Below are positions 7,962-27,119 of a stretch of DNA of 32,299 nt, in pieces; the first letter of the stretch is position 1; every line of letters begins with the position of its first letter. A model generated the notes under the pieces. The model searched no databases. It was not told the DNA's origin and saw only the letters and a list, made by a program, of their open reading frames with translations. The DNA comes from Clostridiales bacterium (GTDB lineage Bacteria; Bacillota; Clostridia; Saccharofermentanales; Saccharofermentanaceae): contig JAFZPJ010000011.1 in assembly GCA_017550385.1 (NCBI GenBank), positions 1 through 32,299 of the forward strand. Direction: 5' to 3'. The translations under genes and the position numbers were made by a program.

Positions 7962-8270
7962 TTGTTACTACGGGTGTACTGCGCTGCGGAACAGTAGTAG
8001 TGCTTTTCGCGCCGAAAAGGGCCGTTTGTTACTACAGCTGTACTACACGGCGGAACAATAGTAGTGCTTTTCGCGCCGAAAAGGGCCGTTTGTTACTACA
8101 GCTGTACTGCGCTGCGGTACAGTAGTAGTGCTTTTCGCGCCGTAGTGCCCGCAATTCACCGCAAAATACACTGCTATGCGGTACATTTGCAGTGTATTCT
8201 GCCTCCCCGAAAACGTTTTACACTGCAAAATACACTGCACTGCGGTACATTTGCAGTGTATTTTTCCCGC
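7962..8270. repeat. Five-unit tandem array with exact 64-bp period
   Basis: An anchor GCGG(A/T)ACA recurs at 7986, 8050, 8114, 8178 and 8242, always 64 bp apart. Units 1-3 share TTGTTACTAC near the start, AGTAGTAGTGC after the anchor, and the hairpin CTTTTCG-CGC-CGAAAAG (units 1 and 2). Units 4-5 keep the register but use other arms: AATACACTGC (8165) with GCAGTGTATT (8189-8198), and a 12-nt perfect version at 8227-8238 with 8253-8264. Direct doublets occur inside units (CACTGC at 8221 and 8233; TACTAC at 8030 and 8041). This fills most of the gene-free stretch 7901-8384. No protein-coding potential is evident in it. Confidence 0.9.
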
Positions 8271-8384
8271 CCCCAACGCGCCCCGACAGTTTACAATTCG
8301 TTATCCGTTCTTTAATCCGCCTTAAACACGCGCGCTATATTATTAAGTTGTAGTAACACACGACTTCAACGCGCGGAGGCAGGC

Positions 8385-9548
8385 ATGCAGATCGATTACA
8401 CTATGTTCTACATCGAGGCGAATATCGTCTGCATCATACTGTTCGCGATCATGCTGTACCGCGAGGCGGCGACGGTCGGCCGACAGGCGAAGCAGGTCGT
8501 TTTCATCAACCTGGCGATCAGCTATATCCTCTACTTCTCAAGCGACATCATCTGGGTGCTGATCCTCGGCGAGGTCATCCCGCGCACGCAGTTCACGGCG
8601 TCGCTCGTCAATTACTCAAACGCGATACTCCTCAGCGCCATCACCGCCTGCTGGTTCATCTATGTCGAGCTTTCGCAGGGTGTCTCATACATCACAATAT
8701 TCAAGAACAGGATCATCGCGTTCATACCGGCGATGGCGGAAGTCGTCATCATGGCGGTGCTCTTCATCTTCTTCCCCGGCCTGGCCCTCACCGCGGACTA
8801 CGAGATGAGCGATCTGTACTACGTCTTCTTCATCACGATACCGACGCTGTACATCATCGCGAGTTCGATCCGCTCGTTCACGCGCGCTTTCAAGAAAGAG
8901 AACTACGCCGTCAGGACGCAGTACATCCTGTGTGCGGTATACCCCGTAGTGATCACGATCTTCGGTATCATTCAGACGATGTGGCTCGAGGCGCCGGTGT
9001 TCTGTTTCGGCTGCACGATAATGATGGTGTACATCTACATCATCTCGCTGAACGACCAGGTCTCGATCGACGAGCTCACGCGCCTCAACAACCGCACGCA
9101 GCTCACCAAATACGTCATGAGCGAGCACACGCGTCCGGGCGGTGACCGCGCCACGCATTACGTGCTCATGATCGATCTCAACAAGTTCAAGCAGATCAAC
9201 GACGTCTACGGTCACGTCGAGGGCGACATGGCGCTCCGCCGCACGGCAGATGCGCTGAAGGTCGCTTGCGCCGGCCTGACCATCCGTTCGTTCATCGCGC
9301 GTTACGGCGGCGACGAGTTCATTGTCATCCTGAAGACCGACGACGAGCCCACGATCACCGCGCTGTGCACTTCGATCAAGAACACGCTCGTCAAGATGAA
9401 CTCCGATGCGGCGGCGGCGTACGAACTCACCGCGAGCGTCGGCTACGCCAGCTACGTCGGCGACATCAAGGAATTCCAGTCCGCGGTCGCGAAAGCGGAC
9501 GAGGCCCTGTACGAGGACAAGAAGGCCGGCCGCGCAGGGCAGAAGTAA
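8385..9548 (+). CDS. Membrane-bound diguanylate cyclase (GGDEF)
   Basis: A 387-aa protein with about six to seven N-terminal membrane helices (residues 1-220) and a C-terminal GGDEF domain. The domain opens DELTRLNNRTQL and has DLNKFKQINDVYGHVEGD and the intact active site GGDEF at 308-312, so it should make c-di-GMP from GTP. The RxxD inhibitory site expected just before the active site is absent, so product inhibition is probably missing. The membrane part presumably senses something; it is not a domain I can name. A GGAGG site precedes the ATG. An EAL phosphodiesterase is encoded at 16896-18701, so both halves of the cycle are nearby. Confidence 0.9.
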   Translation: MQIDYTMFYIEANIVCIILFAIMLYREAATVGRQAKQVVFINLAISYILYFSSDIIWVLILGEVIPRTQFTASLVNYSNAILLSAITACWFIYVELSQGVSYITIFKNRIIAFIPAMAEVVIMAVLFIFFPGLALTADYEMSDLYYVFFITIPTLYIIASSIRSFTRAFKKENYAVRTQYILCAVYPVVITIFGIIQTMWLEAPVFCFGCTIMMVYIYIISLNDQVSIDELTRLNNRTQLTKYVMSEHTRPGGDRATHYVLMIDLNKFKQINDVYGHVEGDMALRRTADALKVACAGLTIRSFIARYGGDEFIVILKTDDEPTITALCTSIKNTLVKMNSDAAAAYELTASVGYASYVGDIKEFQSAVAKADEALYEDKKAGRAGQK

Positions 9549-9570
9549 AGGTAGCCCTTGGCACCCGAAG

Positions 9571-9612
9571 TTACTGACAAACATACTGCATATGCAGTAA
9601 CTTTTGCAGTAA
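9571..9612. repeat. Miniature co-centred double inverted repeat
   Basis: TTACTG (9571-9576), 7 nt, TACTGC (9584-9589), 4 nt, GCAGTA (9594-9599), 7 nt, CAGTAA (9607-9612). Both pairs share the same centre. It lies between the GGDEF stop and its terminator and has the doublet design of the larger elements at reduced size. Confidence 0.7.
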
Positions 9613-9622
9613 GTCCACAAAG

Positions 9623-9655
9623 AAACTCCCGGGGGCTGCCCGGGAGTTTTGTTTT
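9623..9655 (+). terminator. Intrinsic terminator after the GGDEF gene
   Basis: AAACTCCCGGG (9623-9633) and CCCGGGAGTTT (9639-9649) form a perfect 11-bp stem with loop GGCTG, followed by TGTTTT. The A-rich start could make it work for the minus strand as well. Confidence 0.92.
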
Positions 9656-9664
9656 ACTCAAAGC

Positions 9665-9777
9665 TGTTCCAAAACCAGTAGCGTTTTGGCTCCAATCACT
9701 ACTGGAAAAACTACTGCCGGCCGGATAGTTGAATTTATAGTAGCGTTTTGGCGTAATCCGCTACTACAAAAAGAACA
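9665..9777. repeat. Eight-block palindromic element, copy A
   Basis: Blocks: GTTCC 9665-9669; AGTAGCG 9677-9683; CACTACT 9697-9703; ACTACT 9710-9715; AGTTGA 9727-9732; AGTAGCG 9739-9745; CGCTACT 9759-9765; GAAC 9773-9776. The middle three pairs centre on 9721 (AGTAGCG/CGCTACT perfectly, CACTACT/AGTAGCG with one mismatch); the outer pair is off by one. AGTAGCGTTTTGGC also recurs directly with a 61-bp period. It fills the space between the converging GGDEF and histidine kinase genes. Confidence 0.75.
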
Positions 9778-9791
9778 CCCCGTCGCGGCAC

Positions 9792-11423
9792 TCACTTCTT
9801 CGATATCTTCGCCTCGAACACGCCGCCCTTGATCGCGGTCGTCAGCTTCAGCTTGTGCTGCTCCAATATCCTGCCCGCGATCGCGATGCCTGTGCCGGGT
9901 GTGAACGTATCCTTGTCGGTCTTGTTCGTGATGACGATCGCCGCAGGGGTGATCTTGACCACGACCGGGCGCACCGTCTTGTACTTGGAAGCATTGTCGA
10001 TGAGACACGTCAACGCCTGCGCGAAATACTCCTTATCCACCGCCAGCACCGCGTCGCCCTCGACCTCACAATCCGCGCCGACGGCCTGCACCACCTGATC
10101 CACGATCTCCCGCACGGAAGTCTTCACCAGTACCGGATTGCTCTTCTCGGCAGTCTTGAGGATCGCCTCTATCCCGGCATTCATTTCGGCGGCCTTCTCG
10201 AGTATGCGGTCGGCGTAACGGTCTTTCTCGGAAGCGCCGTCGACATCCTTCAGGTTTTCCGCGTAGCCTCCGAGTATCTGCAGCGGCGTCTTGAGGTTGT
10301 GTGCGAGCGAGTCGATCAAGTTGTTCTTGAAGAGATTGTTTTCGTAGGCCTTCTTGTATTGGCGGTACGGACGCAGCGCAGTAAGCATTGGGATGCCGAT
10401 GAACACCAGTACCAGGAAGATGCCGTAGACGATCATGAAGGGCGTATAGTATTCCGTGAACGACTGTGCGGTGATGATGCCCTCGTATAGATATCTGTGT
10501 CCGCCGGTCTCGTATATCCTGAGAGTGCCGAAGGTCTTGCGCCCGTCAACGGTAAGCGTGGTCGAGTAATAACGTTCACCCTCCTCCATCTTGCCGCTCG
10601 CATATATGCAGGACAGCTGATCCTGCATGAAAACGTCGTCTTCCTCTGCGAGGAACTCGTCAGGTCTTACGGGAACGCCATAACAGATGCTTCCGATGAA
10701 CGGATCATCCCTTGTTGCCTGCAGGTACTTGTCCTTATCGGCTGCGGCCGTGAAATCCCATTTTTTGGCGAACGGAAGTTGCGATATGCCCCTCCTCACC
10801 AGACCCAGGTGCAGGGTGTCGCCTTCAGTGTAATAAGACAATATGTCCAGGCACGGAAAGCAGTTGTTGCCATAGATCTCAGAGACGAGGAAGAACGGAT
10901 CCAGTTCGCTGACATACCATCCTTCGGAGAAAGCCAACAGGTTGTACGAATTGGTCATATACGTGTCCAGAGACTCTGCCGGTTCCCAGATCTCGTCGCA
11001 CTTGAGATACTTTATGTTCAGTTCGAACGCACTCGGATTCGGCTGCTTGCAGTCGAGCTCGGTTCCTGCGAGCGCATCGTCACGCGTAACATAGTACCAT
11101 TCGTGGATGCTGGCGGAGACCGGGACTATCGAGTAGTCCGTCTCGAAGATGGGCTCTATCTTACCGCTGTCATCTATCTTGGAGATGCGCAGATAATCCA
11201 TCTGGTAGAAGTTGGCCATCATGCCGATGAACTCCGGCGTAAGCTCGCCGTCATCGTACATGTCGATCATCCTCTGGTACTTGTCGAAATAAGCGGTATT
11301 GCCGCTCTGCAAAGTAGCATCATAACGATACTCGAACACCATGGTGGTGAACCCGAACAGGAGCAGGCCTATCAACAGTCCTACTGCCACGCGCGGAAAT
11401 GCAAAATCCCTGTACTTTTTCAT
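9792..11423 (-). CDS. Sensor histidine kinase
   Basis: A 543-aa membrane kinase. A first membrane segment (about residues 8-30) is followed by a roughly 300-residue extracytoplasmic sensor region unlike any I know, a second membrane segment (about 337-358), then the catalytic core. The phospho-acceptor is His375 in DSLAHNLKTPLQILGGYAENL. The ATP-binding part has the N-box LTCLIDNASKYK and a single G-box GTGIAIAGRILEQHKLKL; the ATPase domain is compact. It partners the response regulator just upstream, 60 nt away on the same strand. The ATG at 11423 is preferred over an in-frame start 27 nt upstream because GGGGG lies 9 nt before it and the membrane helix follows directly. Confidence 0.92.
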   Translation of the reverse strand: MKKYRDFAFPRVAVGLLIGLLLFGFTTMVFEYRYDATLQSGNTAYFDKYQRMIDMYDDGELTPEFIGMMANFYQMDYLRISKIDDSGKIEPIFETDYSIVPVSASIHEWYYVTRDDALAGTELDCKQPNPSAFELNIKYLKCDEIWEPAESLDTYMTNSYNLLAFSEGWYVSELDPFFLVSEIYGNNCFPCLDILSYYTEGDTLHLGLVRRGISQLPFAKKWDFTAAADKDKYLQATRDDPFIGSICYGVPVRPDEFLAEEDDVFMQDQLSCIYASGKMEEGERYYSTTLTVDGRKTFGTLRIYETGGHRYLYEGIITAQSFTEYYTPFMIVYGIFLVLVFIGIPMLTALRPYRQYKKAYENNLFKNNLIDSLAHNLKTPLQILGGYAENLKDVDGASEKDRYADRILEKAAEMNAGIEAILKTAEKSNPVLVKTSVREIVDQVVQAVGADCEVEGDAVLAVDKEYFAQALTCLIDNASKYKTVRPVVVKITPAAIVITNKTDKDTFTPGTGIAIAGRILEQHKLKLTTAIKGGVFEAKISKK

Positions 11424-11483
11424 TCCTAATAACCCCCTTTGCGGCCGCACACGAAGGCCGTCCGTCCCAACACGATAACAAGG

Positions 11484-12152
11484 CTAATCGAATCTGTACC
11501 CGACTCCGATAAGCGTCTTGATGCGGGCGCCTTCTTTCTTAAGTTTCTTGCGGAGGTTCTTCACGCGGTTGTCGATCACGCGCTCGGTTATGAACGAGTC
11601 GCCGTTCCAGCAGGCAGCGAGCAGGAGCCGTCGTGTGACCGCAGTCCCCGGATGTTCCATCATGTACTTGAGGATCAGATACTCTTTGGGCGGCAGATCG
11701 ATGATCTCGCCTGCGACCGTCACTTCGAACTTGGCAGGGTCGAGCGTGATCTGTCCGCTCGAGAGCACCTTGCGGGGGACCCTCTCTTCCGCCGTACGCT
11801 CTAAGATGGCAAGCAGCTTGCTGTACAAGACCTTGATCGAGAAAGGCTTTACGATGTAATCGTCGGCACCGAGTTCGTAGCCGTAGAGCACATCTTCCTC
11901 CCTGACCTTACCCGTCAGGAAAACGACCGGAACGTCCGACCTCTTCCTTATGATCTTGCAGAGCTCAAATCCGTCGATACCGGGCATCATTATGTCAAGA
12001 ACAATAAGATCATACTGACCGTTAAGTATCTTGCTCAGGCCTATCTCCCCATCCGCGGCGAGGTCAAGCTTGATCTTATCGCGCCTGGCAAAAAAGTCCC
12101 CGATAACTTCTCTGATCTGAATGTCATCTTCAACGAGCAGAACGTTGTACAT
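11484..12152 (-). CDS. OmpR/PhoB-family response regulator
   Basis: A 222-aa two-domain regulator. The receiver has acidic E8-D9-D10, phospho-acceptor D53 in LIVLDIMMPGID, the switch threonine in VVFLTGK, and the conserved lysine in DYIVKPFS. The C-terminal winged helix (about 125-222) has LPPKEYLILKYMMEHPGTAV, the recognition-helix region ERVIDNRVKNLRKKL, and ends GVGYRFD. GGAGG stands 6 nt before the ATG. Upstream there is a pair of direct repeats with an 11-bp period that fits an OmpR-family binding site, so the kinase/regulator operon may activate itself. Confidence 0.95.
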   Translation of the reverse strand: MYNVLLVEDDIQIREVIGDFFARRDKIKLDLAADGEIGLSKILNGQYDLIVLDIMMPGIDGFELCKIIRKRSDVPVVFLTGKVREEDVLYGYELGADDYIVKPFSIKVLYSKLLAILERTAEERVPRKVLSSGQITLDPAKFEVTVAGEIIDLPPKEYLILKYMMEHPGTAVTRRLLLAACWNGDSFITERVIDNRVKNLRKKLKKEGARIKTLIGVGYRFD

Positions 12153-12172
12153 GAATCTCCTCCGTCAAAGTG

Positions 12173-12204
12173 ATATTACCCGTCCCGTGTATCGTTTGTG
12201 TATC
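12173..12204 (-). promoter_or_regulatory. Candidate autoregulatory site of the response regulator
   Basis: GTGTATC occurs at 12187-12193 and 12198-12204, a direct repeat with an 11-bp period, the spacing used by OmpR/PhoB-type dimers. A minus-strand -10-like TAATAT is at 12173-12178. The repeats cover the place where a -35 box would sit, and no good -35 is present. That is the layout of an activator-dependent promoter. Confidence 0.5.
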
Positions 12205-12214
12205 ATTACATGAA

Positions 12215-13192
12215 TTACTGCCAGCTGTTGAGACGAACTCTCTCGGAGAGAGGTTTCTTGCTCGGCGCGTGGAACTCGTCCGCGGCTTTGCCAACGGGCA
12301 GCAGGCACACCACGTCGTACTCATCCGGCACGCTTAAAATGGACGCGATCTTATCGCAGATCCTGTCCTCATCCGTGATGTGTCCTTCGTACCAGCAGCT
12401 CTGATATCCGAGCTCGACTATCGCCAGTAGCATGTTCTCGATCGCAGCGGAATAATCCTGTATCGCGAAACACCTGTCCCTGTACGCATTGATCCTTCTT
12501 GTCAGGACCACGATAAAAGCAGGTGCCGTCTGCGCTACGGGCGGATCGATCACGCCCTTGATCTGCGCGAGCACTTCAGGGTCGTTTACTATGACCACGT
12601 CCGTCGTCTGCTTGTTGCATCCGGAAGGCGCGTCGATGCCTGCCTTGGCGATCGTTATGAGATCAGCTTCAGGCACGCTCCCGGGCAGGAACGCACCGCG
12701 GTAGCTGTGACGCGCAGCGATCGTATTGACCGCACTCTTAAGGGACATCACGTAGATCTGGCAGGGGTTTAACTCGTCCCAATAATCCGGCAGCACTTCG
12801 AGCTCTTTGAACCCCAGGCTCTTGTAGAACTCGTTGGTGATATCGTAGTCTTCGTACATGCCGCTTCTGACCGTCTTGACCTGGATGAACTCGTAGCCAT
12901 GCACGGAAGCATAATCTCTTGCCGCGGCGAAAAGCCGTCTTCCGACACCCTTCCTGTGGCACTCCTTCCTCACGCCCATCACGGCAAGCTCCATAGTCTC
13001 TTTGCCGGTCTCCTTCAGACAGAGAAAACCTTCGACAACGTCTCCGTCAACGGATGCCCAGAAGGGCTGGTCTGCCGACTCTCTTATGTACTGCTCTCTG
13101 CTCTCCTCGACCTCGAACCACTCGGTAAGAGACTCGAGGATCTGCCTGGAGATCTCCTTGCGTTCTTCTGCGTTTTCTATAAATCTGATCAT
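12215..13192 (-). CDS. GNAT acetyltransferase-nitroreductase fusion protein
   Basis: A 325-aa two-domain protein. Residues 1 to about 150 are a GNAT N-acetyltransferase with the acetyl-CoA loop RKECHRKGVGRRLFAAA and the late motif NEFYKSLGFKE. Residues from about 155 are a nitroreductase-like FMN domain, with AARHSYRGAFLPGSVPEADL, AGIDAPSGCNKQTTDVVIV, DYSAAIENMLLAIVELGYQSCW and a proline-rich VCLLPVGKAADE tail. Both domains appear complete; substrates are unknown. The ATG at 13192 follows the flavin reductase stop by 2 nt (TGAGAATG) and has GAGGAG upstream, so the pair is coupled. The flavin reductase next door fits a flavin redox role. Confidence 0.88.
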   Translation of the reverse strand: MIRFIENAEERKEISRQILESLTEWFEVEESREQYIRESADQPFWASVDGDVVEGFLCLKETGKETMELAVMGVRKECHRKGVGRRLFAAARDYASVHGYEFIQVKTVRSGMYEDYDITNEFYKSLGFKELEVLPDYWDELNPCQIYVMSLKSAVNTIAARHSYRGAFLPGSVPEADLITIAKAGIDAPSGCNKQTTDVVIVNDPEVLAQIKGVIDPPVAQTAPAFIVVLTRRINAYRDRCFAIQDYSAAIENMLLAIVELGYQSCWYEGHITDEDRICDKIASILSVPDEYDVVCLLPVGKAADEFHAPSKKPLSERVRLNSWQ

Positions 13193-13194
13193 TC

Positions 13195-13767
13195 TCAGCT
13201 CCTCTTCTTCATCGGTTCGCCCCATGCGCCGAGGTCCTTGCCCTGATAGCTAAAGTAATGCTTGCAGGTGGTCTTGACCGGCGCGATGCGCATGAGCTTC
13301 TGCTCATAAGTCTCATCACCGGAAGACAGCGACTCATCCTGCAGGACGTTCCTCATCTTGCAGAGCATGATGGTGCCGTCGTGCTTATAGATGAAGTCTG
13401 TTACTTCCAGTTCGAAGTTCACCGGCGAAGCGTTAATGATAGGGACGTCCAGTACCTCGCCCTTGCCGATATCAAGATCGATGTTCATCTTATCGGGATT
13501 ATTGCCGCTTACAATGCCGAGATGATCAGCGACGGGAAGCAGTTCTTCCGTCACCAGGTTGGCAGAGAAGATCTTATTGCGCTTGATGTTACGCACAGTG
13601 GTCTTATCGCCGCCGATGGCGCACATCACGCCCATCTCGCCGTCCCAGAGATAACTGAACCAGCAGAACAGTCCGAAATCCGGCGTGCCGTCCTCATTAT
13701 ATGTTCCGTACATGAACAGCGTCTGCGGACAATAATCGTTATAAGGCTTAAGGCTTATCTTCCCCAT
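13195..13767 (-). CDS. Flavin reductase family protein
   Basis: A 190-aa FMN-binding split-barrel protein of the flavin reductase-like type (MGKISLKPYNDYCPQTLFMYG, VRNIKRNKIFSANLV, the C-terminal CKHYFSYQGKDLGAWGEP). Such proteins either reduce free flavin with NAD(P)H or simply bind FMN. It is the first gene of a unit with the GNAT-nitroreductase fusion, to which it may supply reduced flavin; that is inference. A GGAGG site precedes the ATG. Confidence 0.88.
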   Translation of the reverse strand: MGKISLKPYNDYCPQTLFMYGTYNEDGTPDFGLFCWFSYLWDGEMGVMCAIGGDKTTVRNIKRNKIFSANLVTEELLPVADHLGIVSGNNPDKMNIDLDIGKGEVLDVPIINASPVNFELEVTDFIYKHDGTIMLCKMRNVLQDESLSSGDETYEQKLMRIAPVKTTCKHYFSYQGKDLGAWGEPMKKRS

Positions 13768-13861
13768 ATGGATCCTCCGTCACTTTATATTCCCCTTTTG
13801 GTCTGTGTTTTTATTATAATCTTAAGTGCAACACTTTATTTATATAAACTGTATTGAGTAT

Positions 13862-14668
13862 ATGAGAAGAAGATTACTGACAATTCCGGTACTGATGATG
13901 ATGGTCCTGACGGCGCTGCTCGCAGGATGCAGCAAATACGGCAAAAAGATATTCTATTGCGACAGCGATAACCACATCGGCCTCGAGGCGATTTTCGTTT
14001 CCTTCGGCGGCCGCATAACCATCCGTCTTGATGAGGATTATGCCGTAGACGGAGAGTACCCTTACGGCCAGTTCAAGACGCTTTTCGAGGAAGAAGAATA
14101 CCCTGAAGATAAGACGATAACAGTTATCGCCAAGAACGGTACCAAGGCAGAGATCGATGCCGATGACATTACCATAGACGGCGATGAATATACCATCAGC
14201 TTTATCGTCGAAGGCATAGATCCAAAGGACATCAAGATCATCAGGCTGTATTCGACTATAGCCCAGTATTCCGAGATCAACCTCGACAATATCTCGATCA
14301 AGACCGAGACAGGCGGCGGTGAAGCCACGACTTATGTCGTGCAGATTTATGACGTAAAAGATGATTTCTGGAATGATCTAGAGACCAATATCCAGACATA
14401 TTCATACTTCGAGATATCGGACGAAGAACCTGCTGCGGTTGCCACATGGGAGTACTTCGAGACACTGGACAAGGATAACACGGGCCTTGACCAGATCGTT
14501 GAAGACATCGGCGGATACGGCATAGAAGGCTCCGGCATACTGTATTACGTATGGAATCTCAAAGACGGTTCCAAAGCCAAGGTGGTCTTCGACAGCAACG
14601 GCAAGATCGTCAGGATCTACATTGAAGAAGGCTACGAGTCCGAACTGATCTACAAGCGCGAGTATTAA
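13862..14668 (+). CDS. Lipoprotein of unknown function
   Basis: A 268-aa secreted lipoprotein. The signal peptide MRRRLLTIPVLMMMVLTALL ends in the lipobox LLAGC, so it should be anchored outside the membrane. The mature part is rich in acidic residues and beta strands with no family I recognise. The start at 13862 is chosen for the signal peptide; the frame opens 36 nt earlier. No Shine-Dalgarno is visible. TATAAT occurs at 13815-13820 and TATAAA at 13843-13848, either of which could be the -10. It is followed after 19 nt by another plus-strand gene. Confidence 0.8.
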   Translation: MRRRLLTIPVLMMMVLTALLAGCSKYGKKIFYCDSDNHIGLEAIFVSFGGRITIRLDEDYAVDGEYPYGQFKTLFEEEEYPEDKTITVIAKNGTKAEIDADDITIDGDEYTISFIVEGIDPKDIKIIRLYSTIAQYSEINLDNISIKTETGGGEATTYVVQIYDVKDDFWNDLETNIQTYSYFEISDEEPAAVATWEYFETLDKDNTGLDQIVEDIGGYGIEGSGILYYVWNLKDGSKAKVVFDSNGKIVRIYIEEGYESELIYKREY

Positions 14669-14687
14669 CAAAGGTACGGTAACCGGC

Positions 14688-15365: not shown

Positions 15366-15375
15366 GACCGGGCGC

Positions 15376-15486
15376 GTTCCTTTTTCCGTTCCAAAAAGGT
15401 TCAAAACGCTACTGCCAACACTACTAGATGGCAATTAGTTGAATTTGCAGTTGCGATTTCCGCCAAAACACTACTGCTCCGGGAAC
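15376..15486. repeat. Eight-block palindromic element, copy B
   Basis: Blocks: GTTCC 15376-15380 and 15388-15392; GCTACTG 15408-15414; ACTACT 15420-15425; AGTTGA 15437-15442; CAGTTGC 15448-15454; ACTAC 15470-15474; GGAAC 15482-15486. Outer GTTCC/GGAAC and GCTACTG/CAGTTGC (one mismatch) share the centre 15431. The second pair is not complementary in this copy. Total 111 bp. Copy E begins 22 bp further on. Confidence 0.8.
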
Positions 15487-15508
15487 AGCCCCGCCTCCGC
15501 GCACCCGG

Positions 15509-15620
15509 GCTACCATTTTGGCTACCGGATTCCCGATATTGGTAGCCTGACCGGTAGCTTTCGGCAAAAAACTACCAATACGGCTACCAAAACTCCGAAA
15601 ACGGTGGCCTGTTTGGTAGC
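15509..15620. repeat. Eight-block GCTACC/GGTAGC element, copy E
   Basis: Hexamers at offsets 0, 12, 32, 44, 62, 74, 94 and 106: GCTACC 15509 and 15521, GGTAGC 15541 and 15553, ACTACC 15571, GCTACC 15583, GGTGGC 15603, GGTAGC 15615. The 112-bp element can fold as one long co-centred hairpin or as two side-by-side 50-bp hairpins. With copy B it fills the gene-free stretch 15366-15696 between converging genes. Confidence 0.88.
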
Positions 15621-15643
15621 CTCCGCGCAACACCAACCCCAAA

Positions 15644-15674
15644 CAAAAAAGAGGGCCGCCACATCAGGCGACCC
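15644..15674 (-). terminator. Intrinsic terminator of the XRE membrane regulator gene
   Basis: On the minus strand GGGTCGCC and GGCGGCCC form an 8-bp stem (one G-T pair) around TGATGT, followed by TCTTTTTTGTTT. Confidence 0.88.
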
Positions 15675-15696
15675 CCGTCAGCACAAAAACTCAAAC

Positions 15697-16680: not shown

Positions 16681-16701
16681 AATCTATACCTCTACTGTCA
16701 T

Positions 16702-18701: not shown

Positions 18702-18773
18702 CTTTGGGCTGAATTATAAAGACAGCGGCCTGTGTTTTTTTATACTGCTATTTTATCGCATAATCCTAAGCGA

Positions 18774-18779
18774 TATAAT
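18774..18779 (+). promoter_or_regulatory. -10 box immediately before the solute-binding lipoprotein gene
   Basis: TATAAT ends 6 nt before the ATG at 18786, so transcription would begin at or next to the start codon. No Shine-Dalgarno is present and the -35 region is weak (TTTTAT at 18751-18756). This is a candidate leaderless transcript. Confidence 0.45.
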
Positions 18780-18785
18780 GTCGTT

Positions 18786-21221: not shown

Positions 21222-21222
21222 G

Positions 21223-21654
21223 TTAACTTCCGGTTTTTTCTTTGAAACCTTGGATTAGCTTCAACATGTAGCCGTCAGCTACCGCATGGTTCATAAGGCT
21301 GCCGTTATTAAAGTGATCTGCTCTGAATTGGTATGCAATACAAGCAATGATCTGCATTTTGGTGAGACCGGCAATGAATTCGGCATCAGGTTCGTATACT
21401 TTATGTTCGTCCAGGCCGCCTTCTTTCAAGACATCGAAATAGTTATTAATAACGATGCCCATATCATAGGCTTCACGCATGAACTCTTTATAAATCAATA
21501 TATCTATACGCTCATGCTCTGTCGGTCTTGAATATACGGAATAGTGCTCACACCACTCTTTAAGATCGGGGTCTTCATACAAAAGACGGAGCACGGTTTC
21601 GTACTTCTCGCAGAACTTATGACAATTAAATAGTAATTCAACTTCTTGATTCAT
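21223..21654 (-). CDS. DUF6508-like hypothetical protein
   Basis: A 143-aa soluble acidic protein. The C-terminal segment (LTKMQIIACIAYQFRADHFN, then NGSLMNHAVADGYMLKLIQGF) recalls the DUF6508 pattern with a conserved R-x-DHF and a following G-L-like helix; the match is from memory and moderate. Function is unknown. The ATG at 21654 is the first real start; no Shine-Dalgarno is visible. Its stop lies inside the palindrome AAGTTAACTT that also contains the stop of the opposite gene. Confidence 0.65.
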   Translation of the reverse strand: MNQEVELLFNCHKFCEKYETVLRLLYEDPDLKEWCEHYSVYSRPTEHERIDILIYKEFMREAYDMGIVINNYFDVLKEGGLDEHKVYEPDAEFIAGLTKMQIIACIAYQFRADHFNNGSLMNHAVADGYMLKLIQGFKEKTGS

Positions 21655-21717
21655 ATGCAATAATCACTTTATTAGTATCAGCTTCTAATCCGCCTCTCCT
21701 CACAGATCTTAACAGCT

Positions 21718-22179
21718 TTAATCCCATAAGATCATATTCTTAGGATCAAAGCTGAGTTTCTCACCGCATTCCGGACACACAAGTTTTCCGTTCATAAGAT
21801 CTTCCGGGAAATCGACTATCCTCATATCACCGCCACACGAACACTTGTGATCGTAGTCAAACTGCTTGTCATAGCCTTCAAGATCATTAGCCATTACATA
21901 AGCAGGTGCTTCTGCGCATCCATCCTTGGGAAGATATGCTGACATATTAGGCAATACCTTCAGACAATTGCATCTGGTACATACCGCTATTTCTCTCTCG
22001 CAGTTAACTACTGCATTGTTATGTGATCTGAAGAGATCTTGGATTCTCTTACCATAGTCACCATTTCTAATGGCCTCCACAGTTCCCGCATACTCGGACG
22101 GGAAGCGCATTCCAATACCAAGCAGAGCTTCAAACTCATAGCTGCACTTATTACATTTGATCTGATAACCTTTTCCCAT
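21718..22179 (-). CDS. Zinc-ribbon protein of unknown function
   Basis: A 153-aa protein with several cysteine knuckles: CNKC near residue 9, CTRCNC near 85, CSCGG near 124 and CPECG near 144, enough for two zinc sites. No other domain is recognised. The start MGKGYQIKCNKCSYEFEA has a strong AGGAGG site 5 nt upstream, although the frame remains open 36 nt further. It may be part of a transcript with the gene downstream on the same strand (63 nt gap). Role unknown. Confidence 0.75.
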   Translation of the reverse strand: MGKGYQIKCNKCSYEFEALLGIGMRFPSEYAGTVEAIRNGDYGKRIQDLFRSHNNAVVNCEREIAVCTRCNCLKVLPNMSAYLPKDGCAEAPAYVMANDLEGYDKQFDYDHKCSCGGDMRIVDFPEDLMNGKLVCPECGEKLSFDPKNMILWD

Positions 22180-22344
22180 ATTCTCCTCCTTATCTTCATG
22201 TCTTGCTTTTTCCATTTACTTTCTTGTTCAGATTCTATCAAGGTATCTGTCCGTTTATTATCCCTGATCAAAAGTGTACCGGTGGTAACACTCACACTTC
22301 CGTAATGCTATAATCACCCTATCAACATTCCGAGGTGACTAATA

Positions 22345-22653
22345 ATGGTAAGGCACGTAATCGTTTGGACGCTTAAGGACGAATATTCTGACAGTGAGAA
22401 GGCTGAGATCAAAGCCGGCATCAAGTCAGGGCTGGAAGGCCTCTTGGACAAGATCCCCGGACTTGTTGAGATCAAGGTGTATACGGAAGGTCTGGAGAGT
22501 TCGTCCGGAGATGCGATGCTGGATTCGGTTTTCGAGAGCGCGGAAGCCCTGAAGGAGTACAGTTCCAACCCTGCGCATGTTGAGGTCGCCACCACGAAGG
22601 TAAGGCCTTTCGTGAAGGTAAGAAGCAGCTACGACTATGTTGTGGAAGACTAA
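22345..22653 (+). CDS. Dabb-family (stress-responsive alpha/beta-barrel) protein
   Basis: A 102-aa protein with the dimeric ferredoxin-like Dabb pattern: MVRHVIVWTLKDE at the N-terminus, a central VEIKVYTEGLESSSGDAMLD strand, and SNPAHVEVATTKVRPFVKVR near the end. Members are small, often stress-related proteins or cyclases of unknown substrate. A GAGGTG site lies before the ATG. The stop overlaps the next start as TAATG, so it is coupled to the membrane protein downstream. Confidence 0.9.
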   Translation: MVRHVIVWTLKDEYSDSEKAEIKAGIKSGLEGLLDKIPGLVEIKVYTEGLESSSGDAMLDSVFESAEALKEYSSNPAHVEVATTKVRPFVKVRSSYDYVVED

Positions 22654-23225
22654 TGGGTAACATAGTACTTAAGAACATATCGGTAAGAGGGCTCGTGTTC
22701 TCGGCAGTCTTTGTGGTGGTCGGCATGATCATCACCGCCATCGGTGTCAGAGAGACCGTGATCTACCATTCACAGCCCGTGAGCGCAGACCGGCTGCAGA
22801 GTTCATTCGAGGATAATACGCGCGTTAAGCTGACGGACTACCGCGTGGCGGGCGTGATCGACATGAAGGGGTATTCCTACTTCATCATAGAATACAGCGA
22901 GGGCAGATATTGCCTGGTCGAGACCACCAAGGACAAGTATTTCTACAACCGGCTCAAGGTGCAGGACAAGAGAAAGATAACCGGGCAGGATCTCGTGATC
23001 GACGGCTATCTGTATCACCTGGAGGATTACCAGCTGGACAGCATACGTGAGGCTCTGACCAAGAGCGGGATAGATTCGTCCCAGATAGATATCATGGGCG
23101 GGCATGCCGTGAAGATCCTGACGGAAGAGTATACGTTCCTCGTCATCGGGCCGGTGTTGATACTGATGTCGGTCGGGGCTTATGTTTTGAGTAAGAGGCT
23201 GTTTGGGAGTCAGAGAGATCAGTAG
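22653..23225 (+). CDS. Small membrane protein of unknown function
   Basis: A 190-aa protein with one membrane segment near each end (about residues 12-32 and 160-180) and a central extracytoplasmic domain of about 125 residues rich in charged and aromatic residues. No family is recognised. Start and stop overlap with the Dabb gene (TAATG) implies joint translation. Confidence 0.8.
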   Translation: MGNIVLKNISVRGLVFSAVFVVVGMIITAIGVRETVIYHSQPVSADRLQSSFEDNTRVKLTDYRVAGVIDMKGYSYFIIEYSEGRYCLVETTKDKYFYNRLKVQDKRKITGQDLVIDGYLYHLEDYQLDSIREALTKSGIDSSQIDIMGGHAVKILTEEYTFLVIGPVLILMSVGAYVLSKRLFGSQRDQ

Positions 23226-23235
23226 AGCAAACAAA

Positions 23236-23258
23236 AGCCCCGCCGTTGAAGCGGGGCT
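23236..23258 (-). terminator. Intrinsic terminator of the Hsp20 gene
   Basis: AGCCCCGC (23236-23243) and GCGGGGCT (23251-23258) form a perfect 8-bp stem. The T-run (TTTTGTTTG) follows on the minus strand, so it serves the Hsp20 gene. The hairpin may also slow the converging plus-strand unit. Confidence 0.88.
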
Positions 23259-23279
23259 CGTGTATCATTCCTTTGGCGC

Positions 23280-23702
23280 TTAGCCTTCGATGGCTATGGT
23301 GTTGTTCCCGGGCAGGGCCTTGAGATCCTTCTTGGGGATGGATAGCTTCAGAACGCCGTCTTCAAGCTTAGCCTTTACGTCCTCCCGCTTGACGGCTTCA
23401 CCTACGTAGAAGCTGCGCTGCAGGGTGCCGGCATATCTCTCCTGACGGATGAGCTTGCCGTGAGTGTCCTTCTTGTCTTGTTCCTGATCCCTGGCAGCAC
23501 TGACGGTCATGTAACCGTTCTCGAGCGTGATGTTGATCTGGTCTTTCTTGAAGCCCGGGAGGTCCATATCAAGCTCATAGCCTTCCTTGGTCTCGAGGAC
23601 ATCCGTGTCCATCACGTGGTCGTTGATGTTTGCCAGCTCATGCGTCGGGAAACCCCAAAACTCATCAAACAAATCTTCTCCAAATAATCCGGACATCAAC
23701 AT
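23280..23702 (-). CDS. Small heat-shock protein Hsp20
   Basis: A 140-aa alpha-crystallin-type chaperone that holds unfolding proteins. The alpha-crystallin core (about residues 30-130) has ETKEGYELDMDLPGFKKDQI, a central RQERYAGTLQRSFYVG segment, and the strand KAKLEDGVLKLSIPKK. The C-terminal tail has a short hydrophobic TIAIEG motif. The ATG at 23702 is chosen because AAAGGAG stands 9 nt before it; an ATG 9 nt upstream abuts that site. A perfect CIRCE element overlaps the promoter, so HrcA repression and heat induction are expected. Confidence 0.95.
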   Translation of the reverse strand: MLMSGLFGEDLFDEFWGFPTHELANINDHVMDTDVLETKEGYELDMDLPGFKKDQINITLENGYMTVSAARDQEQDKKDTHGKLIRQERYAGTLQRSFYVGEAVKREDVKAKLEDGVLKLSIPKKDLKALPGNNTIAIEG

Positions 23703-23791
23703 AATTATCATCTCCTTTGAATGTTGTTATCCGAGCATTAGAGCGGAGGTCTGATCTTCTATTAGAGATCTTCGTTCCTTTGTTCTCACTC

Positions 23792-23833
23792 ATTATAGTC
23801 CTGCCGTTAGCACTCGCAAGAGGAGAGTGCTAA
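23792..23833 (-). promoter_or_regulatory. HrcA-controlled promoter with perfect CIRCE element
   Basis: TTAGCACTC-n9-GAGTGCTAA (23807-23833) matches the CIRCE operator exactly. On the minus strand it overlaps a promoter, TTGCGA (23814-23819), 16 bp, TATAAT (23792-23797). HrcA bound here would cover the -35 box. The predicted leader to the hsp20 ATG is about 80 nt. The remaining 23834-23956 shows no gene. Confidence 0.97.
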
Positions 23834-23956
23834 TCAATTGTAACCATTTTGCGGGGTGCGTTTTGTGCAGATTTTGATGAGCCGTGGGCGGCGGAGGGGA
23901 CTATAATGATGGGGGCTTGCAAATTTGGGGGCGGGTGAGCAATTTCTTTTATAGCT

Positions 23957-24544
23957 TTATAGAATGAATTTTCTTAATAAATCTCGAAGATAATCAACAA
24001 CTCCATTCGCGGATTGAATGGTAGCAATCATCAATTCATCGGTATCTATAGTCGAGAAATTAATGTCATGCCCACTATGACGTATCAATTGAGTCAAAAA
24101 GACTCTTTGTGTTCTTCCGTTTCCTTCTCTAAATGGATGAAGCATATTTGTATTACAGTAAAATTCAACTATAGAATCCAAATAATGATCGTCATCATAC
24201 CCGATATAACAATTCGCTTTCTGTAGTCCTGTAAAGATCCTGTCAGCGAGTGTATCGATAGATTCCGGCAAAGTAAAAACAGTTCCTTTCTTTGATATAG
24301 AAACGGTTCTTACCTCACCTGCCCAATCATAAAGGTCATCGAAAATATACTTGTGTATGGACTTATAATGATCAAAGCCAAAATCGCCATTAATAGGCTT
24401 AATCTCTAATTCTTTACACTTGGCAGTAGTAATGAGAGTTTCCATCTGCGAGAGTTTTTTCTCATCTTTAATACCGAACTTGTTTATAAGACAAGTCGTA
24501 CCCTCATAACAATCATCTGGAATAGGATCAATACTATAGCCCAT
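23957..24544 (-). CDS. Fic-family toxin (AMP transferase)
   Basis: A 195-aa Fic protein that would transfer AMP (or a related group) to a protein target. The active-site motif is intact: HPFREGNGRTQR at 136-147, with catalytic His136. The flap lies around KKGTVFTLPESI (85-96). No inhibitory S-x-x-x-E-G motif is found in the protein itself. It lies instead in the small upstream partner, making this a class I Fic system like VbhT/VbhA or FicT/FicA. The start overlaps the antitoxin stop by one base (TAATG). The A/T-rich composition differs from neighbours, hinting at acquisition. Confidence 0.93.
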   Translation of the reverse strand: MGYSIDPIPDDCYEGTTCLINKFGIKDEKKLSQMETLITTAKCKELEIKPINGDFGFDHYKSIHKYIFDDLYDWAGEVRTVSISKKGTVFTLPESIDTLADRIFTGLQKANCYIGYDDDHYLDSIVEFYCNTNMLHPFREGNGRTQRVFLTQLIRHSGHDINFSTIDTDELMIATIQSANGVVDYLRDLLRKFIL

Positions 24545-24708
24545 TATTCTTGCTCATTTACAAGCTCAAGTGCTTTATCGAGGAACTCACTCCAGCTAAG
24601 TTCATTGTTGGAATACCGGCGGCACAATTCATAGCCTTCATCGCTAAGATAAAGACCTTCCATCTGTACAGACGCTATGGCATTGGCTAAAGCCAGATCA
24701 TTAGACAT
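24544..24708 (-). CDS. Fic antitoxin (VbhA/FicA-like)
   Basis: A 54-aa helical protein, MSNDLALANAIASVQMEGLY and onward. It carries S13-V-Q-M-E17-G18, an exact match to the S/T-x-x-x-E-G/N inhibitory motif whose glutamate blocks ATP in the Fic active site. The C-terminal half (about 30-54) resembles the antitoxin VbhA-like tail. The ATG at 24708 has a GGAGG site; the frame is open upstream without support. It is translationally coupled to the toxin. Confidence 0.9.
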   Translation of the reverse strand: MSNDLALANAIASVQMEGLYLSDEGYELCRRYSNNELSWSEFLDKALELVNEQE

Positions 24709-24727
24709 AGGTACCTCCAACATTGAC

Positions 24728-24736
24728 AGTATACCA
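24728..24736 (-). promoter_or_regulatory. Extended -10 promoter candidate for the Fic module
   Basis: Minus-strand TGG-TATACT is an extended -10 (TGn plus TATACT). No good -35 lies at the right distance. The predicted start would give a leader of about 13 nt before the antitoxin ATG. Confidence 0.4.
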
Positions 24737-24787
24737 TAGGCCCATGTCATTTGAGTGGATTATTAGGGTCAAAGGACACCTTGTTAA

Positions 24788-25357
24788 TTAATACCCGAGC
24801 ACATCTTCCATGACCAGCTCTTCCAACTCCGAAGCATTCTCCAGCACGTAATCCTTGAGGTAAGAATTGTCGGTGGAGCCGCCTCCGGTCAGAACCCACT
24901 CACCATTCTCATCTTCTGCCCAGTAGCCTTCGCCCCAGATATTCAGCTCTACGATTATGATGACGTTATTCTGCAGATATACCATCGAATCTATGGTCGC
25001 ATCGCACACGCCGGGAGTCTCCCCTATAAACCAGTTCAGGCCTTCTTCATCCAGACCGCAGTAGTTCTGATAGCTATCCTTAGTGGCATAAAAAGCCTTT
25101 GCTGCTTCGGGGGCGGAATCAAAGACTTTGAACCAGCATTTCTCTTCGGGATCCTTGGAACCGCTATGCCAGACGTCCAGATATATCTGGTCGTTATGAT
25201 CGCGCTTGCAAACACTCCATCCGTCATATACATCGTATTCGGCAGCGCCTGCCTCGAGATCATAATCCGTCGCATATTGCTTGCACGAAGTCAATCCGCC
25301 CAATGCCATTACCACCGCGATCCCTATCGCTGCCAGTTTCTCCAGGATAACACTCAT
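24788..25357 (-). CDS. Lipoprotein of unknown function
   Basis: A 189-aa secreted lipoprotein with signal peptide MSVILEKLAAIGIAVVMALG ending in the lipobox GLTSC. The mature domain is acidic, with pairs of tryptophans and cysteines (CWFKVFDSAPEAAKAFYATK) and an acidic helical tail. No family is recognised. A GGAGGTG site precedes the ATG. It is upstream of the Fic module on the same strand, separated by about 80 nt. Confidence 0.8.
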   Translation of the reverse strand: MSVILEKLAAIGIAVVMALGGLTSCKQYATDYDLEAGAAEYDVYDGWSVCKRDHNDQIYLDVWHSGSKDPEEKCWFKVFDSAPEAAKAFYATKDSYQNYCGLDEEGLNWFIGETPGVCDATIDSMVYLQNNVIIIVELNIWGEGYWAEDENGEWVLTGGGSTDNSYLKDYVLENASELEELVMEDVLGY

Positions 25358-25473
25358 ATCTACACCTCCGCCGCCTGTTACGTTTGAACTAATACCTTCT
25401 ATACAGGCATAGGCGGGGGAATGTTGCAGGGCGTGTTCCAGCGCGGCACTCTGCGCACCCTCTTCGCACCCCG

Positions 25474-25585
25474 GCTACCAAATTGGCTACCAAATTCGCG
25501 AAATCGGTGGCCTGATCGGTAGCATTCGGCCCAAATCTACCAAACCGGCTACCAAAATCACGAAAACGGTAGCCTTTTTGGTAGC
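25474..25585. repeat. Eight-block GCTACC/GGTAGC element, copy F
   Basis: Hexamers at offsets 0, 12, 32, 44, 62, 74, 94 and 106: GCTACC 25474 and 25486, GGTGGC 25506, GGTAGC 25518, TCTACC 25536, GCTACC 25548, GGTAGC 25568 and 25580. Length (112 bp) and every offset equal those of copy E, 10 kb away, in the same orientation; both are followed by CTCCGC. Copy C starts 23 bp further on. Confidence 0.88.
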
Positions 25586-25608
25586 CTCCGCAAGTTAAGT
25601 TCGCGTCT

Positions 25609-25719
25609 GTTCTTTTTCCAGTAGTGAATCCGGCGTTTTCGCTACAAAGAACACTGCTATTTACCGGTTAGTAGTTTTCTCAGTAGCATTATCTTCAAAA
25701 ACGGAACAGCATTAGGAAC
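25609..25719. repeat. Eight-block palindromic element, copy C
   Basis: Blocks: GTTCT 25609-25613; GTAGT 25621-25625; GCTAC 25641-25645; ACTGCT 25653-25658; AGTAGT 25670-25675; CAGTAGC 25681-25687; GGAAC 25703-25707 and 25715-25719. Centre 25664, length 111 bp. The right part (25681-25709) is identical over 29 nt to copy D at 27081-27109. With copy F it accounts for most of the gene-free stretch 25358-25785; the remaining 25358-25473 shows nothing I can name. Confidence 0.82.
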
Positions 25720-25727
25720 ACCGGCAA

Positions 25728-25760
25728 TAAAAAAACCCTCGGGAGCTTAGTCCCAAGGGC
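25728..25760 (-). terminator. Intrinsic terminator of the alanine dehydrogenase gene
   Basis: On the minus strand CCCTTGGG and CCCGAGGG form an 8-bp stem with one G-T pair and loop ACTAAGCT, followed by TTTTTTT. Confidence 0.9.
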
Positions 25761-25785
25761 TTGATTAACTGCATTGTCGATCGGA

Positions 25786-26895
25786 TCAGATAAGCGACTC
25801 GAGTTCCGTGAATTCGTAGCCCAATGCATCTGCTACGTTCTTGTTCGTGATCTTGCCGAGGTAGCAGTTGACGCCGGTCGCGATGGCCTGGTTTGCGCAA
25901 GCGGACTCGAGGCCCTTGCCTGCGATCTCGAGACCGTATCTCAGAGTAGCGTTCGTCAGAGCGATGGTTGAAGTTCTCGGTACCGCACCGGGCATGTTGC
26001 CTACACAGTAGTGGACTACGCCGTCTTCGATAAAGACAGGCTCATCGTGGGTGGTGACACGGGAAGACTCGCCACAGCCGCCCTGGTCGATGGCAACGTC
26101 AACAAAGACTGCACCGTCCTTCATCTCGGGCAGGTACTTCTTCTTGAAGAGCTTGGGTGTGGAGCCGCCGGGGATCAGTACGGAACCGATCACCAGGTCT
26201 GCTTCCTTTACGACGCGCTCGATGTTGGAGTCGGTGCTGACCAGTGTCTGGATGTGTGCGCCGAACATGTTGTCGAGCTCCTCAAGGCGCTTGAGGTTTA
26301 TGTCCAGGATCGTTACGTTGGCACCCATGCCTACTGCGATCTTGCAAGCGTTCATGCCGACTGTGCCGCCGCCGAGGATGACGACGTTTGCCTTAGGCGT
26401 ACCGGGAACGCCGGCAAGAAGGATGCCCTCGCCGCCGAACTTCTTTTCGAGATACTTGGCGCCTTCCTGGATGGAGAGACGGCCTGCGATCTGGCTCATG
26501 GGAGCGAGGCAAGGAAGGGACCTGTCCTTCTCCTGCATTGTCTCGTAAGCGACCGCCTTAACCTTGCCTGCGAGCAGCGCGTCCGTCTGTGCCTTGTCTG
26601 CAGCGAGGTGAAGGTATGTATAGAGGATGAGGCCCTCGCGGAAGAGCGGATACTCGCTTTCGAGAGGCTCCTTGACCTTGACCATCATGTCGACCAGATT
26701 CCAGACGTCGGCAGCATTGTCGATGAGGCTGGCGCCCGCGTCAACGTACTCGTTGTCCGTAAAGCCCGAGCCGATGCCCGCACCTTTCTCGATGTAGACG
26801 TGGTGTCCGGCGGCAACATATGCTTTGACGTTGTCAGGCGAGAGGCCTACGCGGAACTCATTGTTCTTGATCTCTTTAACGCATCCGATCTTCAT
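25786..26895 (-). CDS. ald: Alanine dehydrogenase
   Basis: A 369-aa NAD-dependent enzyme converting L-alanine to pyruvate and ammonium, or the reverse to store nitrogen. The N-terminus MKIGCVKEIKNNEFRVGLSP is typical. R15, K75 (in MVKVKEP) and H96 (in YTYLHLAAD) match the pyruvate-binding and catalytic residues. The nucleotide fold has VVILGGGTVGMNACKIAVGM, and VDVAIDQGGC and NMPGAVPRTST follow. Length is normal for the family. AAAGGA lies 11 nt before the ATG. It is a single-gene unit with its own promoter and terminator. Confidence 0.97.
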   Translation of the reverse strand: MKIGCVKEIKNNEFRVGLSPDNVKAYVAAGHHVYIEKGAGIGSGFTDNEYVDAGASLIDNAADVWNLVDMMVKVKEPLESEYPLFREGLILYTYLHLAADKAQTDALLAGKVKAVAYETMQEKDRSLPCLAPMSQIAGRLSIQEGAKYLEKKFGGEGILLAGVPGTPKANVVILGGGTVGMNACKIAVGMGANVTILDINLKRLEELDNMFGAHIQTLVSTDSNIERVVKEADLVIGSVLIPGGSTPKLFKKKYLPEMKDGAVFVDVAIDQGGCGESSRVTTHDEPVFIEDGVVHYCVGNMPGAVPRTSTIALTNATLRYGLEIAGKGLESACANQAIATGVNCYLGKITNKNVADALGYEFTELESLI

Positions 26896-26923
26896 AGTGG
26901 TGTGTCCTTTCTGTTTGTGGTTG

Positions 26924-26973
26924 TGTTGAGCGTCAACAAATCTACTTTACTAACTGGAGGGGGGCTGTGTCAA
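26924..26973 (-). promoter_or_regulatory. Candidate ald promoter with downstream operator-like palindrome
   Basis: On the minus strand TTGACA (26968-26973), 18 bp, TAAAGT (26944-26949). Just downstream, at the predicted start, is the perfect inverted repeat TGTTGA-GCG-TCAACA (26924-26938). A repressor bound there would block initiation; which one is unknown. Confidence 0.45.
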
Positions 26974-27008
26974 ATATTAATGACAATGCGGGCGGGATGT
27001 GGTGAGGT

Positions 27009-27119
27009 GTTCCTCGGGGCGTTCCCAAAATGCTTAAAACGCTACTGAGAAAACTACTGTCCGGGGAATAGTAGTGTTTGCAGTAGCATTATCTTCAAAA
27101 ACGGAACAGATCTTGGAAC
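27009..27119. repeat. Eight-block palindromic element, copy D (best formed)
   Basis: Four nested inverted pairs share the exact centre 27064: GTTCC 27009-27013 with GGAAC 27115-27119; GTTCC 27021-27025 with GGAAC 27103-27107; GCTACTG 27041-27047 with CAGTAGC 27081-27087; ACTACT 27053-27058 with AGTAGT 27070-27075. The blocks of each doublet are 12 bp apart (11-12 in the inner right doublet). It occupies most of the gene-free stretch 26896-27208, beside the promoter of the plus-strand lipoprotein. Confidence 0.92.

Follow-up and report, generated by a model that had tools for sequence, protein, structure and literature searches.

What holds the spacing of short inverted repeats constant when their sequence differs? 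The question is raised by contig JAFZPJ010000011.1 of a Clostridiales bacterium (assembly GCA_017550385.1; Saccharofermentanaceae), in which intergenic elements are each built from eight short blocks set about a common centre. The whole stretch analysed, 32,299 bp, is referred to here as the window, and the genome to which it belongs (G000; 1.85 Mb in 61 contigs, 85% complete, 6% contaminated) was compared with others of its genus. Intergenic repeats of bacteria are as a rule recognised by sequence; in this case it is the spacing that is conserved, so sequence searches miss the class. The eight-block geometry is real, and the elements represent a new form of dispersed palindromic intergenic repeat, one that conserves its geometry and not its sequence. 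The explanation we favour, holding it at about even confidence, is that the elements are DNA-level arrays gripped by a putative protein complex with shifting specificity. They would then offer a testable case of a DNA-binding architecture that is kept while its specificity turns over and, possibly, a class of sites at which a group of rumen bacteria wraps its chromosome or insulates its genes.

Eight-block elements in the window

The window contains six elements of 111–114 bp, four of a CTACTG type (B) and two of a GCTACC type (A), and all six are where the original prediction had put them. They are given below with a shorter, related unit (type C); a 'quad' is an exact word, the same word again, and then its inverted partner twice, all at equal spacing.

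9571..9612: type C, one unit standing alone, TTACTG N6 TACTGC .. GCAGTA N6 GCAGTAA, forming an exact quad with 12-bp spacing
9665..9777: type B, eight positions, flanked by converging genes and 14 bp beyond the stop codon of the one on the minus strand
15376..15486: type B, 10 bp beyond the stop codon of the gene on the plus strand
15508..15621: type A (GGCTACC/GGTAGCC), its eight blocks starting 0, 12, 32, 44, 62, 74, 94 and 106 from 15509
25473..25586: type A element, 83% identical with its flanks (133 bp) to the 15508 copy
25609..25719: type B, lying between the preceding A element and a hairpin that by eye resembles the next gene's terminator
27009..27119: type B, between divergent genes, with GTTCC twice/GGAAC twice as outer blocks and CTACTG twice/TAGTAG and CAGTAG as inner ones

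The block offsets predicted for these elements are exact for type A and hold to within 2 bp in the four type B copies (9665, 15376, 25609 and 27009), and the A copy at 25473–25586 aligns to that at 15508–15621 without an internal gap. Left and right blocks had all been taken for inverted partners. This is so throughout type A and, in type B, for the inner four blocks (CTACTG words) and the outermost ones (GTTCC/GGAAC); it fails for type B blocks 2 (GTTCC or CAGTAG) and 7 (GGAAC or CTACTG), which are chosen independently and were of non-matching kinds in 6/11 copies. As read here all six elements do lie between genes, as had been claimed, with mechanically called frames overlapping some of them (for example 15424–15642, encoding 72 aa, 9658–10008 and 26011–27048). 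By crude gene calls, 11/25 A or B rows are situated 1–26 bp past a stop codon; the remainder follow terminator-like hairpins or are farther from genes, with one clear divergent case (27009).

Exact quads are commonest at 12 bp

At a spacing of 12 bp the window contains 12 quads of 4-mers and six of 5-mers, against 0–1 and 0, respectively, at any other spacing up to 24, and 30 dinucleotide shuffles of the window gave means of 0.13 and 0 at spacing 12. In 413 kb of the same genome, 21 quads of 5-mers were found at spacing 12, nine at 18 and none at the others between 6 and 24. A blind sample of the genus, comprising 20 first-contig stretches (291 kb) picked regardless of matches, yielded 11 5-mer quads at spacing 12, from two genomes (G002 and G018), and no more than one elsewhere; 4-mer quads numbered 20 at spacing 12, compared with 0–7 at other spacings. 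No 5-mer quads at spacing 12 occurred in 20 stretches (285 kb) from other families. With six further blind stretches added there were three clusters at spacing 12 in 392 kb, from which it follows that most blind stretches lack the lattice and that its density differs between species.

Two further searches, one around a single gene and one with a core word, gave a less clear picture. The query gene for one of these, which we take to be alanine dehydrogenase-like, has close counterparts in rumen Clostridia (Ruminococcaceae bacterium RUG12736, 98% identity; Clostridiales bacterium Firm_16, 91%; AB4001, 89%; Saccharofermentans sp. Tb.RUG.504 and YAD3003, both 88%). Loci around it in other genomes (80 loci, 889 kb) held five spacing-12 clusters in four loci, at least one of the five being a run of T, and 0–3 at other spacings; the loci of the isolates AB4001 and YAD3003 showed no lattice match. 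A pattern with a CTAC core matched 7/79 genomes, our own included and all of one genus (those in G013 and G014 look like chance matches by eye), revealing blocks of CTACCT, CTACAA and CTACAC with unchanged spacing, and had no match in 32 genomes of other families. The reversed pattern, used as a control, matched 21/79 genomes with 1–5 matches each, so the count alone proves little; within G000 there were ten forward matches and one reversed. A longer form of the element, carrying genes between the same end pairs, was also sought and set aside. End pairs at spacing 12 and up to 5 kb apart gave 22 matches, 11 of them 89–96 bp apart and 11 at 317–3900 bp, compared with 4, 2, 1 and 1 for spacings of 10, 11, 13 and 14. 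A distance of 89–96 bp corresponds to the eight-block layout, and was seen in G000, G030, G018 and RGIG2713.

The same lattice is built from other words

Further copies, whose existence in the genome and its relatives the original prediction had proposed as a check, were found with both the A and the B model. G000 has four full places of type A (both strands reported) and one half, and 12 places of type B, four in the window and four on contig C8; 4/5 A places are within 60 bp of a B copy. The type C unit has a second copy at L044:6180. The A model matched 8/85 genomes of the genus: G000, G006 (three places), G109 (four), G093 (nine) and, as single weak matches, G030, G087, G045 and G101, the last without a visible eight-block layout by eye. 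One A-type copy, G109:C22, was left out of the A covariation, spacer and periodicity statistics. The B model matched 2/85, namely G000 and G006 (five places).

Selection on geometry, as argued in the original prediction, is well supported: relatives carry the same block order at nearly the same spacing in other words, and aligned copies are ungapped. Words were read out one at a time, allowing one mismatch in those longer than five letters. The order >><<>><< was common to GCTACC, GTAAAC, CTACCTA, TCTTCA, AGAGACA, GTTCTA and GTACAAG. Steps between the GCTACC blocks of G000 are 12, 20, 12, 18, 12, 20 and 12 bp, and those of GTAAAC in G018 are identical to the base pair, discounting one chance word match and tolerating a single mismatch in each block. 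Three words were read in G030, CTACCTA (12, 16, 12, 22, 12, 16, 12), TCTTCA (12, 19, 12, 19, 12, 18, 12) and AGAGACA, which has the same order with its first block missing; GTTCTA in RGIG2713 reads 12, 21, 12, 16, 12, 21, 12 with one chance match ignored, and GTACAAG in RUG12736 lacks one block. In G093, 6/9 places were read, with steps of 12, 21, 21, 16, 12, 21 and 21; two of these are in the other unit orientation, one step is 22, and extra word matches are found upstream in two. The block order is constant, with steps near one or two helical turns.

Copies are ungapped, and some are absent from a relative

No internal gap is needed to align the eleven B copies of G000 with one another, or six A copies drawn from three species. 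Within G000, B copies are 65–69% identical to their closest paralogue, or 80–81% for three of the C8 copies (reverse-complement comparison, and the out-of-register G006 rows 6_C1, 6_C6b and 6_C5, being left out). Non-coding DNA of G000 and G006 differs by 0.132 substitutions per site with 0.19 indels per substitution (7,922 columns), so that drift would be expected to leave several indels in each pair. The single orthologous B pair between these genomes, flanked by proteins of 85% and 95% identity, differs at 1/112 positions where 13.2% was expected; the chance of so few changes at the local rate is 2e-6.

Elements have also been gained or lost between the two species. The B copy on C26 has no counterpart in G006, in which 6 bp separate the aligned flanks compared with 203 bp in G000 (an empty site that rests on BLAST coordinates, MAFFT having misaligned the region), and the C8d copy is absent between aligned genes. 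At C8b, where the left flank alone aligned, and at C8c with its A neighbour, where the right flank alone did, no element was seen in G006. The type C copy of RUG12736 (L120) is 87% identical over 45 bp, with flanks that do not align.

Spacer composition, and a helical period in type A

Spacer sequence varies, and its composition is kept: G/C centres with A/T flanks were found in types A and B and in the G093 elements. G+C counts, centre versus flank, were 69/80 vs 29/200 and 37/40 vs 12/80 in type A; 32/44 vs 16/55, 36/55 vs 3/77 and 29/55 vs 6/88 in type B; and 17/32 vs 9/96, 16/32 vs 13/96 and 7/20 vs 0/24 in G093. The mean G+C spectrum of ten type A copies, over periods of 3–30 bp, has its top peak at 10.5 bp, a height reached in 0/1000 column permutations, and that of four G093 copies peaks at 10.2 bp. 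Protein-wrapped or bent DNA would be the natural reading of this phasing.

A proposed protein-read DNA array

Several things were directly observed: the lattice, its recurrence with other words, the intergenic location, the ungapped copies, their gain or loss between two species, the composition of the spacers and the 10.5-bp period of type A. From these we infer a reader protein and a function for the elements. Each element is a piece of non-coding, dispersed DNA made of two tandem units. Each unit is a dyad of four half-sites, in which a short word stands twice in one direction, at a distance of about one helical turn, and then twice inverted. The half-sites may be occupied, on double-stranded DNA that is bent or wrapped, by an oligomeric, sequence-specific protein that changes its specificity between families and keeps its architecture, and with it the spacing. 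The elements would spread and persist in the manner of repetitive extragenic palindromic (REP) sequences and bacterial interspersed mosaic elements (BIMEs), often just downstream of genes; the reading we favour makes them REP/BIME-like in habit, without the REP-associated tyrosine transposase (RAYT) or a constant GTAG. Of the two mechanisms offered in the original prediction, the one that fits best is an array recognised by a DNA-binding protein of several domains, although no such protein was identified.

That words are read, rather than shapes, is suggested by nested inverted pairs counted in same-genus DNA totalling 1.83 Mb, some of which had been chosen on account of earlier matches; pairs in which over half of the spacer could itself pair were left out. 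At spacing 12, the inner and outer words of 17 clusters were alike as direct neighbours, two differed by two mismatches and three were unlike. Spacings of 13–16 gave no like clusters and 5–9 unlike, and spacings of 9–11 gave 12–22 unlike, including off-register copies of the same elements. Were pairing alone relevant, inner and outer words would be free to differ; the excess at spacing 12 needs like words. As we read it, the balance favours a sequence-reading mechanism at the level of DNA.

Several observations weigh against this account. Besides the missing reader protein, the several block families of one genome would need several specificities. The spacing itself is less exclusive than the 5-mer counts imply, since 4-mer quads in the other-family stretches also peak at 12 (10, vs 1–6 elsewhere), and families with 11-bp steps in G006 and G109 show that 12 bp is not universal. 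Phasing is uneven: the 10.5-bp peak of type B (permutation p 0.066) is below peaks at 5.6, 6.9 and 7.6 bp, and six single elements of other families had no significant 10–11 bp signal. The constraint estimate draws on the one orthologous pair that could be compared, and the repeat beside that pair is conserved too. Finally, type A is predicted to fold into very stable RNA (z -7.2 and -8.5), and the G109 and G045 elements keep inverted partners despite unlike inner and outer words.

A wider version of the protein-read array is more tentative, and we think it somewhat doubtful: a chromosomal ruler common to the genus, in which a fast-diversifying family of DNA-binding proteins of constant architecture would wrap DNA on eight-site lattices, mostly of 61–62 bp period, with words particular to each species. 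Such a class would be unrelated to REP sequences, to miniature inverted-repeat transposable elements (MITEs) and to clustered regularly interspaced short palindromic repeats (CRISPR).

A possible structured RNA or cruciform

The last two of those objections lead to the other mechanism originally offered, a structured RNA or cruciform, in which the blocks are the helices of a long hairpin read by its shape, so that any word with a complementary partner would serve; as RNA it might act as a 3′-UTR (untranslated region) stabiliser or a terminator. We consider this unlikely. Fold stability is indeed strong in type A and the G018 elements (z -7.2 to -8.5) and much less so in type B (-2.1 and -2.7), the placement of 11/25 rows just past a stop would suit a transcribed hairpin, and single units in G001 are hairpin-like with a T-run by eye. 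Covariation, which had been proposed as the test, gave a divided answer. Within type B there was no compensatory change in 15 named pairs over 11 rows, and the covariation score was below that of shuffles. Between species, the inner blocks of type A do change together (2-7 and 6-7), in favour of pairing, but the blocks that agree best are direct copies 2 and 6, which are unable to pair (of these rows, that of G045 is misregistered and two from G109 have no block 1). The 6-bp spacers showed no more pairing than shuffled sequence did (33/108 vs 39.4 in type A; 38/66 vs 38.6 in type B), there was no excess of nested pairs whose inner and outer words differ, the G093 lattice is asymmetric (12/21), and one copy is situated between divergent genes. 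Structured RNA is thus, stable A folds notwithstanding, not the better reading.

A known RNA family was also looked for, as suggested in the original prediction. None reached the Rfam gathering score over the elements, the sole match of the window at that score being a thiamine pyrophosphate (TPP) riboswitch at 4224–4327; below it, 9540–9800 and 25460–25730 gave five matches to microRNA (miRNA), His leader and small RNA (sRNA) models.

Possible mobility without a host function

It is also improbable, in our view, that the elements are miniature mobile elements resembling MITEs or REPINs (paired REP sequences forming hairpins), with the lattice a mere transposase footprint and no function for the host. 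Their dispersal and patchy distribution among genomes (A in 8/85, B in 2/85), the two sites empty in G006 and the type C copy found elsewhere in RUG12736 are what such elements would give. Other observations speak against them. The ends of B read TGTTCC..GGAACA in most copies, yet flanking direct repeats of at least 5 bp were absent from all 11 examined, with one of 4 bp and two of 3 bp, and paralogues as little as 65–69% identical (80–81% for three) are nevertheless ungapped, with the orthologous copy changed at 1/112 positions.

Candidate mobilisers were also looked for. A RAYT-driven REP system was not supported, there being no Y1 transposase match in G000 or G006; Y1_Tnp had 0 matches in G000 (at 85% completeness), G001, G006, G018, G024 and G030, and was present in 12/45 genomes of the genus, a sample to which G109 and G093 did not belong. 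Among the other families searched, rve, DDE_Tnp_1 and IS110 had no match in the A carriers G000, G006, G109 and G093; rve is present in G030, G018, G001 and G024, and IS110 in G030 and G001. Serine recombinases had no match in G000, G109, G001 and G024 and were present in G006, G093, G030 and G018, and tyrosine recombinases occurred in all eight genomes, two that were read resembling ordinary XerC/D-type genes by eye. Nor was a linked gene retained as partner of the elements: 12 of the 20 flanking proteins scanned matched assorted Pfam families, none a transposase, and eight matched none. The matched families include diguanylate cyclase, histidine kinase, HTH (helix-turn-helix) regulators, RNase J, a LytTR regulator, a solute-binding protein, GNAT, pseudouridine synthase, a deaminase and a CAAX-protease-like protein.

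Possible gyrase wrapping, and known repeats

PMC6379681 describes, for Escherichia coli gyrase, a motif of 130 bp whose flanks have a G+C periodicity of 10.75 bp, and cleavage sites over-represented in BIME-2, a pattern comparable enough to make gyrase a rival partner. Wrap sites for gyrase or a nucleoid protein that handle supercoils downstream of genes, the words being relics of spread, would account for the 10.5-bp period over 112 bp of type A; that one clearly divergent region is among those read also speaks for them. We consider them very unlikely: the gyrase traits known from that source give no need for eight copies of one word, the periodic signal has little strength in B, and in six single elements from other families it does not reach significance.

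Among known repeats, REP/REPIN sequences with RAYT are, as excerpted in PMC3116915 and PMC3733652, also short, extragenic, palindromic and dispersed, with lineage-specific words, and have REP doublets as units and ordered tandem clusters. They are hairpins with a GTAG/CGTC tag, left unpaired beside a palindrome of 20–40 bp, whereas the present elements have eight half-sites, keep their block order without GTAG in GTAAAC, AGAGACA, TCTTCA, CGCTG and GTTCTA, have no Y1 transposase match in G000 or G006, and have A/T–G+C–A/T spacers without a pairing signal. BIME-2 gyrase sites share intergenic palindrome arrays and, with type A, helical G+C periodicity over >100 bp (PMC6379681); the exact word lattice sets the present elements apart. 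Bacterial MITEs, enterobacterial repetitive intergenic consensus (ERIC) and repeat-unit (RU) sequences, in the excerpts of PMC2759123 and PMC2229807, are likewise intergenic repeats of 100–170 bp, and presence or absence between relatives was seen here, but the elements have no clear target-site duplication, no parental transposon was found, and their internal design is of eight blocks. Among the titles and opening lines of abstracts searched on REP, REPIN, MITE, ERIC/RU and similar repeats, no eight-block lattice was described.

Neighbouring repeats and other features

Viral sequences had 0 matches to the type A pattern, eight to a CTACT pattern (mostly coding-repeat-like by eye) and two, in apparently non-coding DNA, to a GTAAAC pattern. 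Three IMG/VR contigs (L304:683-732, L306:3973-4020 and L307:1504-1554) carry 12-bp direct copies with inverted partners (CTACTG; GTAAAC) in apparently non-coding DNA.

Type D of G000 is an ACAGC array with a 64-bp period. Such ACAGC/GCTGT arrays, at L036:7379-7545, L037:797-965, L038:18973-19130 and L043:15640-15860, seem to form a separate repeat family whose inner loop is shorter. The array beginning at 7962 in the window is also a 64-bp tandem repeat, off the eight-block lattice: 7962–8272 comprises three 64-bp tandem units (TACTAC..TACTGC..CAGTAGTAG) and then two units of another hairpin (ATACACTGC..GCAGTGTAT), 64 bp apart, and a 50-bp piece of it has a 94% identical match in G006 (L288).

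By eye, the single CTACAC/CTACAT unit at L061:17610-17680 (G001) follows a gene, ends in a T-run and resembles an intrinsic terminator. On L035 a terminator-like segment (CGCAGATTCC..TTTTTTATTG) occurs three times within 5.5 kb (near 1990–2030, 7250–7290 and 7465–7490), directly before a B copy twice and before an A copy once (by eye). The repeat adjoining the orthologous B copy (L034:4972-5038) is intergenic and about 67 bp long, with five more matches of 88–98% identity in the G006 sample.

Elsewhere in the window, the TPP riboswitch (4224–4327, minus strand) adjoins genes that resemble thiamine genes by eye, two small overlapping genes at 4428–5047 (minus strand) resemble a RelE/ParE-type toxin and its antitoxin (by eye), and the protein of 7055–7900 has, by eye, a start like a zinc ribbon, then a long region of Ala/Glu/Pro repeats, and an end like a membrane segment.

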